From: Romanomermis culicivorax
Taxonomy: Eukaryota > Nematoda > Enoplea > Mermithida > Mermithidae
DNA length: 64,000 nt
Direction of reading: 5' to 3'
Assembly: GCA_963922205.1 (NCBI GenBank)
Contig: CAWUHX010000012.1
Location: forward strand, 124,001 to 188,000
Shown: positions 60,010-64,000 of the stretch, piece after piece
Layout: each line of letters opens with the position of its first letter
Numbering within the stretch: position 1 is the first letter of the stretch
Notes under the pieces: model-generated
The model's input: only the letters and a program-made list of their open reading frames with translations
Database searches by the model: none
What the model was told of the DNA's origin: nothing
Position numbers and translations under genes: made by a program

Positions 60010-63000
60010 ATGACCCACCAAACGCAAGATCATTTAGGAGAAATCGTTAGAGAACAGATAAACGATTTGTTTTCAGAACATTTTCGTACCCTACGCACAC
60101 AATTGCATCAGAATACAGTAAACCCTACCCTAATAGACGATCTAAGAACAGCAAACATTCGTAATAACATGGCAAACAATTTCTACGCGAAACCTACAGT
60201 ATTCACGGGCGGCGTGACCCAACATTTTGGTGAATGGAACAAAAGATTAGAACAATTCATGGCACTCCAAGGCATGAAAGATACAGACGTACAGTTAAAG
60301 TTGGCATGTTTGGAAATTCATTTAGGAGGAGCCGCGTTAGCAAAATTCAAAAGTTTAGCAAATTCCGAAAACCCTCCCCACACATACGAGCAGTATAAAG
60401 TCGCATTACAGACATTTTTCCCAAACAATAGAGATAATGAGCTACATCAACAATTCTTACGCGAAAGAAAACAAAAGCGTTCAGAAACAGTAACGGAATT
60501 CTTATTTGATCTAGAACATCTCGCAACCCTTGCCTACCCTAACTTTAACACAGACGCACGAGAAATGATCATAAAACCCCTCTTTGTAGAAGGCATGCAA
60601 AACGAAATCAGGGAAGCAATTAAGTATAGAAGGTTCGCAACTTTAAAAGAAATGTCAGACGAAGCAGCTTACATTGAACAGCAAATCCTCAGAAATGAGT
60701 TAAAATCTAACGCCCTTCCCTTCATACCCCCAAAACCGGAACCCATCTTTTCCCTAACCAAAAATACAGACCAACAGGATCTTTTGCATCAGTTAGAACA
60801 ACAAGTAAAAGATTTACAGTTGCAGATCAAACAAAAACCCCAACCCCCACAACAGAGTAGCTACAACAATTTCAGTAACAATACTTTCAGCAGGAATAAT
60901 GCTTACAGGAACAATACCACCCCCAGGCAACCCACATGCTTCCAGTGTGGACAAATCGGACATGTAGCTCGTAATTGTAAATCAGTAGGCACCCGAAAAT
61001 CATGTGAAATCTGTTTCCGTAATAATCACAGTACACGTGATTGTAAAAGCCCATGCATCCACTGCTCCCAAACAGGACATAGATCAGATAACTGCCCTTC
61101 AAAACCCTACTCCAATTTTCAATGTTTTATATGCAAGCAGAGAGGTCATACAAGCAGATATTGCCCAAATCAGCAGAGTCGTAATATTCAAAATTGCATT
61201 GAGTACAGGCAACCCCAACCCCTCATGGACATTGACGACCCCGCATTTTACTCAAAATTACCCGCCATAACTAACGGCCCTCAGACTACTTTAGGAACTA
61301 TCATGCCCAACACCCACCGCCGTAGTGACGAATACGTCCTTGATCTGGACGTACCCGATTGGTGCGCCATGTCACCACCCCCCACGCCTGAAGCCGCAAA
61401 AATCGAAAAATCGCCGCCCACCATCCCCGTAGGCTACAAGATCCCCCGAAAGCAAGACACAACGCCGCCCACCGCCCCCGAAACCCCGTCAAAAACAGGT
61501 CGCAACTTATTGTCCCTCTTACACGGCCTGACCCCCGAACCCTACCAATTCCGCCCCCGCCAAACACTTCTACCGACCCCCATAAGTAAGCAAGTCCAAA
61601 CCCCATCCCATAACTCAACTTCTAAAGTTTTACAGAACGTTCAGATTGCAAACCGGCCACCCCCCCAGCTCAAAATCGCAAAACGACAACACCAAAAACC
61701 GCCACGCCAAATCGAGCAGAGCGAAAAAACACAGTACCCCGCCGCCTCCACTAAAACACTACATTGGCCATTGTATTGTATATTTTTATGTATAATAATC
61801 CCCACATCGTGTAGTGCCCAATTTCAGATGTGTGGAACTTCATTGAGCGGTCACTCAGTCAGCATACCAAAACTTGTATCATGCATGCCCCCTTCCACAG
61901 TAGACAAACCCGTACAAACATTCGGAAAAATCTATATCCCCTCCACTAAGCCCCACATTACAGACGCATACAAATGCAGTGTTCGCAAACGCAAAATTTG
62001 TACTAATACAGGATTTTTTGGATCAAAAGGTATTGTCTTCGACCAAACCGAAATGCAAAATCTAACCCCACATGTTTGTAAGGCAATCGTTATAGACAAA
62101 GAACACAACGGTCAAAAATTATACGAAACCCAACCAGGATTTTGGTCAACAAATAACTCCCTAAGCGTAGAATACACATGGTGTTGTACAGACCATTGTA
62201 CCTCAGTCACTAACGTCATCATAGAAATAGGACAAATAGCATCTTGGAATGGAAAATCTATGACAGGTACATTAGGCGACCTAGGGTCATGCAAACCGAC
62301 ATCAGGTCATTGTGTCACAGCCGACGGATCCATTATCTGGAATGAAACAGCATTTGAAAACTTATGCCCCTTCGAATACAAAAATACACATCCCATAAAA
62401 CTCACACCAACCCACATGATAATAGAAGAGCTACAAGGTGCATTTTCGGTTAAAAACACACTCTTTTCAAACCCCAATTGCCCAGAAATCCAAGACAGCA
62501 TTCTAACCGAACAAGGCATTATCGTACAATTAGACAAAAGCACCCCACATCGTAATGCATTTTTAACCCCAAAAACCAACGAAACTCATACTACACTATA
62601 CGATTTTGATGATTTTGAACCCATCAATGCAAAACTAAACTATCTAGCAGACAAAATACAGGAATTCGAAATTCAAAATTTCAAAAATGTATGGAATGAA
62701 TTATGCAGACAGGCACAGCGTCACCTTGATCTCGTATGGCAAATTTTACGTCTTGATGCAACCCTTGGAGCCCGTGCATTCCTACAGCGAACGGACATAA
62801 TAGCAGAATTCACAGGAGAAGCCCTCACAGTCTGGCCCTGTAAACAAGTAAATGCATCTAAAATCTTTTACAACCACAAAATCAACCAAACATGCTACAA
62901 ACTTTTGCCCATCTTCGTAGGAACCGAACTCATGTTTTCAAATCCAGGAGGCAACGATTTGACCCCTTTTTCGCAAACCGTTGACTGCCATCACATGCAT

Positions 63001-64000
63001 GTAGCCCTTTACAAACAGAATAATACATGGGTCAGTGAAACAGGATCCCTGCATGTCACAAATTTACCTTTAGAAATCATTTGGAACCAAAATTTTTCCC
63101 TTTTCCATTTTAATACACCCGCAATTTTCCATGATCAACTTGCAACAATTTCGACAAACTTACTCTTTTTGAAACAATACATTTATAAAACTCACACACT
63201 TGAAAACATTGTCAAAAAACTCGTCAATTACACTGCCCAAATGTCTCTCAATTCCGATACAGTTTACAACATGATCTCAGGCACTGGCCAAGCACTCGGA
63301 AATACACTCTCTGGCGCCGGTCAAGGCATAGAACATGTAATAACCGGTACCACCCAAAGTCTCACAGACGGATTAAACAATTTACTCAAAGGACCCCTGC
63401 AAATCATTATAAATCTAGCTGTTATTACTGTAGTTTTTGCAGGCATCTTTTATTTGTTTCTCGTTCTTCGAAAATACTTCCCCTCTCCAAAGCATCATGC
63501 CACAAACGAACATGCATACGAAATACCTTCAAACAACAGACATTTACATGAGACCATTCCCCCATCATTCGGCCATGCTCTCTTAGAATTAGCTAATCGT
63601 CGTGGGGCACAAACGCAGCAGAAATACGTCCTTGTCGATATTGATACCCCCCGAACTCCTACAATCGAACTCATTAATCAAATTCAGCAATCCGCATCAA
63701 ATAAGCCACCCCAAAATGTACCTGAGAAACATACCCCTCATATTCCAATCACACTTAACGGCAAATTAATGACAAAAGGCATGATTGACACTGGTGCAGT
63801 TTACTCACTCATTGATTCCCGAATCGCTCAACTTTTACAGTTAGACATGAAACCCCCGCTAGTCCAAGCAAAAGCAGCAAATAATCTCCCGATTCACTTT
63901 GTAGGAACCACTTTTGTCACAGTGACAGCCCAAACAATCCAGGAAACAATCATGGTCCATGTCCAAAAAGATTGCACAGCAGACATTCTTTTAGGCAAAA
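60010..64000 (+). CDS. Gag-zinc knuckle-envelope-like-protease polyprotein of an LTR retroelement (3' end outside window)
   Basis: One frame runs from ATG 60010 (the first in-frame Met; the frame opens after TGA 59776) to the window end, at least 1330 residues without a stop. Residues ~55-250 form a Ty3/gypsy-type Gag capsid (FTGGVTQHFGEWNKRLEQF; YEQYKVALQTFFPNN). Four CCHC knuckles follow: CFQCGQIGHVARNC (310-323), CEICFRNNHSTRDC (332-345), CIHCSQTGHRSDNC (349-362) and CFICKQRGHTSRYC (372-385). A Pro-rich linker leads to a hydrophobic segment ending SCSAQ (584-604), signal-peptide-like. About 530 residues with many Cys and at least eight N-x-S/T sites look like an envelope ectodomain, closed by a membrane span (about 1133-1154). 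A basic tail and an aspartic protease follow (GMIDTGAVYSLID, Asp1260; ADILLGK at 1325-1331). Reverse transcriptase should lie to the right. The envelope superfamily is unassigned; a class III-like or chuvirus-like glycoprotein is only a guess. The coding strand is A/C-rich and G-poor. Confidence 0.9.
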   Translation, partial: MTHQTQDHLGEIVREQINDLFSEHFRTLRTQLHQNTVNPTLIDDLRTANIRNNMANNFYAKPTVFTGGVTQHFGEWNKRLEQFMALQGMKDTDVQLKLACLEIHLGGAALAKFKSLANSENPPHTYEQYKVALQTFFPNNRDNELHQQFLRERKQKRSETVTEFLFDLEHLATLAYPNFNTDAREMIIKPLFVEGMQNEIREAIKYRRFATLKEMSDEAAYIEQQILRNELKSNALPFIPPKPEPIFSLTKNTDQQDLLHQLEQQVKDLQLQIKQKPQPPQQSSYNNFSNNTFSRNNAYRNNTTPRQPTCFQCGQIGHVARNCKSVGTRKSCEICFRNNHSTRDCKSPCIHCSQTGHRSDNCPSKPYSNFQCFICKQRGHTSRYCPNQQSRNIQNCIEYRQPQPLMDIDDPAFYSKLPAITNGPQTTLGTIMPNTHRRSDEYVLDLDVPDWCAMSPPPTPEAAKIEKSPPTIPVGYKIPRKQDTTPPTAPETPSKTGRNLLSLLHGLTPEPYQFRPRQTLLPTPISKQVQTPSHNSTSKVLQNVQIANRPPPQLKIAKRQHQKPPRQIEQSEKTQYPAASTKTLHWPLYCIFLCIIIPTSCSAQFQMCGTSLSGHSVSIPKLVSCMPPSTVDKPVQTFGKIYIPSTKPHITDAYKCSVRKRKICTNTGFFGSKGIVFDQTEMQNLTPHVCKAIVIDKEHNGQKLYETQPGFWSTNNSLSVEYTWCCTDHCTSVTNVIIEIGQIASWNGKSMTGTLGDLGSCKPTSGHCVTADGSIIWNETAFENLCPFEYKNTHPIKLTPTHMIIEELQGAFSVKNTLFSNPNCPEIQDSILTEQGIIVQLDKSTPHRNAFLTPKTNETHTTLYDFDDFEPINAKLNYLADKIQEFEIQNFKNVWNELCRQAQRHLDLVWQILRLDATLGARAFLQRTDIIAEFTGEALTVWPCKQVNASKIFYNHKINQTCYKLLPIFVGTELMFSNPGGNDLTPFSQTVDCHHMHVALYKQNNTWVSETGSLHVTNLPLEIIWNQNFSLFHFNTPAIFHDQLATISTNLLFLKQYIYKTHTLENIVKKLVNYTAQMSLNSDTVYNMISGTGQALGNTLSGAGQGIEHVITGTTQSLTDGLNNLLKGPLQIIINLAVITVVFAGIFYLFLVLRKYFPSPKHHATNEHAYEIPSNNRHLHETIPPSFGHALLELANRRGAQTQQKYVLVDIDTPRTPTIELINQIQQSASNKPPQNVPEKHTPHIPITLNGKLMTKGMIDTGAVYSLIDSRIAQLLQLDMKPPLVQAKAANNLPIHFVGTTFVTVTAQTIQETIMVHVQKDCTADILLGK

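Follow-up and report, generated by a model that had tools for sequence, protein, structure and literature searches.

A Ty3/gypsy-type retroelement of Romanomermis culicivorax with a predicted class III envelope glycoprotein encoded between gag and protease in one open reading frame

Descriptions of retroviruses take it as a fixed point that the envelope gene (env) follows pol and is expressed from a spliced RNA of its own. Here we describe a long terminal repeat (LTR) retroelement of Romanomermis culicivorax, a mermithid whose hosts are mosquito larvae and thus a nematode, in which env lies between gag and protease. The element sits at the right end of the stretch of DNA that we analyzed, hereafter the window (64,000 nt, G000:C12:124001-188000), from an assembly of 359,112,060 bases in 595 contigs. 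The errantiviruses or insect endogenous retroviruses such as gypsy and ZAM are also Ty3/gypsy elements with env, and their env is a third open reading frame that encodes an F-type (baculovirus) protein and is expressed from spliced RNA (PMC12992720), whereas the env described here precedes pol, shares its frame and encodes a class III protein. Anakin, a BEL/Pao element of mosquitoes, is likewise an LTR element with a chuvirus-type glycoprotein but differs in its BEL/Pao pol. The BEL/Pao envelopes known before it are placed after the polyprotein (PMC7642597). A survey of envelope-bearing gypsy elements across Metazoa (Chary and Hayashi 2025, eLife 108449) is described in PMC13172572 as including elements with type III fusion glycoproteins, and PMC13172572 also mentions such glycoproteins in mosquito gypsy and BEL elements. 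Another study states that clear evidence for Gypsy having captured this glycoprotein type is lacking (PMC10084718). Atlas virus of hookworm is also a nematode retroelement with a viral fusogen, but its Env is a class II, phlebovirus-type protein (PMC9094657, PMC10309623). Wherever the literature we covered states the position of env, it is downstream of pol, and no env that lies between gag and protease and shares their frame is described there. The survey of Chary and Hayashi and preprints fall outside that coverage, so novelty is provisional.

The whole element copy occupies C12:182869-192169 (9,301 bp) and has the order LTR-gag-env-protease-RT-RNaseH-integrase-LTR, where RT is reverse transcriptase. 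A single frame opens at an ATG at position 60010 and runs on the plus strand to the window end (60010-64000) without a stop over 1330 codons. The probability of such a frame by chance is ~1e-26 under a Markov model of this region, in which the other two forward frames contain 81 and 75 stops. In the 6.5 kb of contig directly after the window (L009) the same frame encodes RT, RNase H and both the zinc domain and the core of integrase over 1078 further codons before it reaches a stop, for a full length of 2409 codons, and a purine-rich tract and the 3' LTR lie downstream. A sequence-only reading of the window had proposed one uninterrupted frame from capsid to protease; the open frame and its Pfam domains bear this out (capsid and protease fall below the cut-off), and RT, RNase H, integrase and LTR were found to the right, where that reading had suggested looking for them. 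A small correction concerns its overall interval, 60010-64000, which truncates the element where the window ends.

The 5' LTR (58869-59767, plus strand, 899 bp) has the ends TGTAAC...GTTACA, with TATAAA at 59464, and was delimited from its sequence and by comparison with the 3' LTR (L009 3271-4169), to which it is 99.8% identical, with 2 differences over 899 bp. The pair is flanked by an unstranded target-site duplication, GATG (58865-58868 and L009 4170-4173). A putative primer-binding site, TGGTGACCGTACCG, begins 5 nt past the LTR (59773-59786, plus strand). Two LTRs with TG...CA ends, a target duplication and the protease-RT-RNaseH-integrase order are shared with Ty3/gypsy elements (Metaviridae), as are a Ty3-type capsid, CCHC knuckles and the RT_RNaseH Pfam types from which the RT class was assigned; the difference is the fusion glycoprotein between nucleocapsid and protease. 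Unlike in Retroviridae and Errantivirus, env is not downstream of pol but between the zinc knuckles and the protease. No Pfam family regarded as BEL-specific matched in the profile scans of the element, and Rfam and tRNA scans gave no match.

Env. The ectodomain and its two membrane segments span ~61.76-63.47 kb on the plus strand. Hydropathy supports the flanking segments that the sequence-only reading had proposed: an internal signal-peptide-like stretch at residues 586-603 (61765-61818) and a transmembrane anchor at about residues 1132-1152 (63403-63465; hydropathy 2.57), with its strong core at 1132-1150. The hydrophobic stretch is followed by SCSA/QF, a possible signal-peptidase site. The ectodomain proper (~residues 604-1123; 61819-63378), identified by profile and predicted structure, has 16 Cys, and 8 N-glycosylation sequons fall over residues 604-1135. 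Residues 857-1037 (62578-63120) matched Pfam PF24664, Monjiviricetes_fusion (E 8.8e-18; 64 bits vs a cut-off of 27), as did 12/12 env segments examined; the ectodomain also matched glycoprotein B (gB) in the PDB (E 3.8e-4), and the predicted structure has the class III fold. F-type envelopes are class I proteins, and by Pfam and predicted fold the envelope here is class III and not F-type. These models support a membrane-fusion glycoprotein of class III, of the type found in mononegaviruses and in herpes gB, in agreement with the earlier proposal that residues 604-1132 form a surface glycoprotein. An Env like that of Atlas virus, of class II and phlebovirus type, was rejected because the profile and predicted-fold matches are to class III.

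Gag, linker and protease. A capsid-like domain (residues 103-176; 60316-60537) matched Retrotrans_gag (E 9.3e-5; 23 bits vs 24.1) and Ty3_capsid (E 6.3e-4), both below the curated cut-off. Four CX2CX4HX4C zinc knuckles, counted by eye, form the nucleocapsid region (60934-61173), in which zf-CCHC matched over three stretches (E 9.2e-8) and which also matched HIV-1 NC (E 1.8e-4). A Pro/Thr/Lys-rich linker (61174-61755) separates Gag from Env. A 2A skip between the two was considered and rejected, as no NPGP occurs in 15 proteins. Downstream of the anchor, the start of the aspartic protease with its DTGA motif occupies residues 1245-1330 (63742-63999), with a gag-asp_proteas match at residues 1246-1329 (E 2.9e-5; 25 bits, below the cut-off of 28.2). 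All of these features are on the plus strand.

Genome copies. Copy lists cover the best 40 matches per query, with weaker copies outside the scoring. The gag piece had 40/40 scored matches at 97-100% identity and full length (best 40 of 1,280 first-look candidates), and likewise the env piece (best 40 of 1,222). The env-to-protease piece was present in all 39 other copies among the best 40 gag matches, at 96-98% identity and with no deletion of at least 60 bases; 27 of the 39 were free of stops and frameshifting gaps from the signal region into the protease. Among 10 plus-strand copies taken from the gag match list, eight had two full LTRs (98.2-99.6% identical), one a partial 3' LTR and one no 3' LTR, and the 4-bp target duplication was found in 7/8 with both LTRs at full length. 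Near-identical LTR pairs and target duplications indicate that the copies are young, and we infer a recently active, high-copy element.

These copies also dispose of the idea that a viral glycoprotein was inserted once into a single copy, or that the layout is an assembly join. The sequence-only reading had named copies without the segment, or a join, as possible objections; env is in 39/39 other copies at 96-98% identity, the LTR pair and target duplication of the window copy are intact, and four further env families and relatives outside this genome have the same segment. Both versions were rejected on these grounds and we give them next to no credence.

Selection. Across the 8 best copies, which were not chosen for an open frame and two of which have broken frames, the ratio of nonsynonymous to synonymous polymorphism (pN/pS) was 0.084 in gag, 0.104 in env and 0.244 in the linker (codons 421-580), which is thus under weaker constraint. 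Across 28 copies picked for their open frame, and therefore biased toward low pN, pN/pS was 0.072 in the ectodomain, 0.135 in the tail and 0.091 in the protease. All 16 ectodomain Cys were kept in 28/28 of these.

Relatives. Two protein searches yielded 11 relatives (P0002-P0012), of which 10 carried both PF24664 and RT, with env upstream of RT in 10/10. A protease match fell between env and RT in seven of these ten, with none at threshold in P0007, P0008 and P0011. A gag-type or CCHC match preceded env in 4/8 (P0004, P0008, P0009, P0010) of the relatives with at least 400 residues before env (P0004-P0010, P0012). An extra domain lies between gag and env in two relatives: a dUTPase in P0007 (residues 622-742) and an RRM in P0010 (419-475). 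A signal-like segment preceded the first ectodomain Cys in 9/12 proteins and an anchor followed the ectodomain in 12/12; small residues suited to signal peptidase were seen by eye after most signal-like segments, and sequon density was higher inside the ectodomain in 11/12. Fourteen further related elements also place env ahead of their enzymes. P0015 is a fragmentary R. culicivorax protein from a public collection, derived from another copy or family, with 53% identity to the window env over 48% of the query.

Within this genome PF24664 scored above cut-off at 68/68 scored places (68 of 2,320 first-look candidates), several of them in open frames of 2,000-2,578 residues, and in 0/14 control genomes. 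Ten fetched loci plus the window formed five env families, with two of the ten in the window's own family A. Env identity to family A was 56-57% in B, 55% in C, 43-44% in D and 38-39% in E. All four families other than A had RT downstream of env; Pfam matches of gag type or to CCHC lay upstream in B, C and D, with none in E. The frame was broken at the family C locus (L070, L086) and the family E integrase core was in another frame. A single open frame through pol is therefore seen in family A and, judging by frame length, in the long frames of other copies, and not in every family. A contrasting Ty3/gypsy-type element, cut by the window's left edge (L088 and window 3-1889), gave no env match among open frames of at least 100 aa over the 5 kb upstream of it. 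Pattern searches of viral contigs and of genome contigs gave 119 and 10 matches, respectively, of which 0 were confirmed.

Trees of env and of RT, built for the 15 elements that have both, had 9/12 splits in common (label shuffles: mean 0.27, maximum 3), and env and RT distances were correlated (Spearman 0.70, with 0/5,000 permutations as high); several deep forks of these trees were weakly supported. For the most part, env and pol have thus been passed on as a unit since the ancestor that these elements share, and so the arrangement is probably old.

The reading that we favor, and hold to be likely, is an LTR retroelement of Ty3/gypsy layout with a class III env in one frame, inherited with pol and presumably expressed as one polyprotein. 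One full-length RNA would be translated as one chain. Gag would be made in the cytosol, and the internal signal peptide after the linker would direct the chain to the endoplasmic reticulum (ER), where signal peptidase would free the ectodomain N terminus and the C-terminal anchor would stop transfer. Protease, RT and integrase would remain cytosolic behind the anchor, and the element protease would release Gag and Pol on the cytosolic side. With a single chain the ratio of Env to Gag would be fixed, and no env RNA would be needed. The topology, processing and particle entry of Env are all predictions of this scheme.

Several observations weigh against this polyprotein reading. The fold model was of moderate quality (mean predicted local distance difference test score 68.1), with residues 276-290 and 437-552 poor, and whole-chain agreement with postfusion gB was bad (TM-scores ~0.24-0.28, root-mean-square deviation ~40 A). 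In the 28 open copies pN/pS was 0.385 in the anchor and 0.65 in the signal region (23 codons, noisy), and the latter value runs against strong constraint there. P0009 and P0010 had no signal-like segment at the hydropathy threshold, with a weaker run by eye, and P0002 had no upstream sequence; sequon density in the ectodomain showed no rise in P0007 and just a slight one in P0005 and P0008. P0003 is a gag-env protein that ends past the anchor and P0011 is an env-pol protein whose first part is the signal peptide, so that not every relative has env fused to both gag and pol; these split layouts may show how the single frame assembled or broke apart. Finally, an acceptor-like TTTCAG/ATG lies at the ectodomain start (61828; window 61820-61830), either by chance or as a splice or trans-splice site.

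This last feature bears on the main rival, in which the gene order is the same but the continuous frame does not imply one chain. Env would then be translated from an RNA of its own, made by cis- or trans-splicing, or Gag-Pol would arise when the env block, as an in-frame retained intron, is removed. P0011 indicates that an env-pol product can exist without gag, and there is precedent in the errantivirus Env discussed above and in Cer1 of C. elegans, which splices its own third protein (PMC10309623). However, a product beginning at 61828 would be without the signal peptide, and the 27/39 copies with neither stop nor frameshifting gap from signal region into protease fit poorly with such splicing. 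Donor-like sites with at least 8/9 matches numbered 0 in 59.4-64.0 kb vs 0.74 expected by chance, an uninformative result that carries little weight. We regard separate or spliced expression as unlikely, although it is the strongest competitor of the polyprotein reading. A glycoprotein that no longer serves in entry, with an intracellular role such as particle anchoring, vesicle fusion or exclusion of related elements, and with vertical spread of the element, has in its favor the high copy number in one genome (40/40 scored matches at 97-100% identity), which fits amplification inside the cell. Yet conservation extends to the entire ectodomain, to all of its 16 Cys and to the class III fold, which is more than simple tethering needs, and we find this explanation distinctly improbable.

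If the polyprotein reading is true, no separate env message is needed and assembly on ER-derived membranes is predicted. The layout of an enveloped retroelement can be built another way, as shown by a diverse group whose class III fusogen precedes the protease and, in the case of the window, shares a single frame with gag and pol. The chain also resembles the flavivirus polyprotein in its order of capsid, internal signal, envelope, anchor, protease and polymerase. Flaviviruses have a class II fusogen and an RNA-dependent RNA polymerase and no LTRs, and are unrelated to the element. A wider proposal, which we hold to be about as likely as not, is that these elements form an old and widespread clade, which may include true retroviruses that infect nematodes and other hosts, with a flavivirus-like gag-env-pol polyprotein whose Env would be inserted in the ER without an env RNA and whose Pol would be tethered to the Env tail at the assembly membrane. 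With at least 40 near-identical copies, the Romanomermis assembly makes expression, topology and particle formation directly testable.

Elsewhere in the window, diverged tandem repeat units, ~74-84% alike, occur in both orientations at 4282-5285 and 58511-58705. The element adjoins one such block, and beyond its 3' end there are inverted matches (L009 4177-4557). Some 570 bases of a purine-rich five-base repeat (9914-10496) open long KRKEK frames on one strand. On the minus strand, 5928-6386 holds an exon-like frame with an RHGE motif, which by eye we take to resemble a gene of the histidine-phosphatase family.

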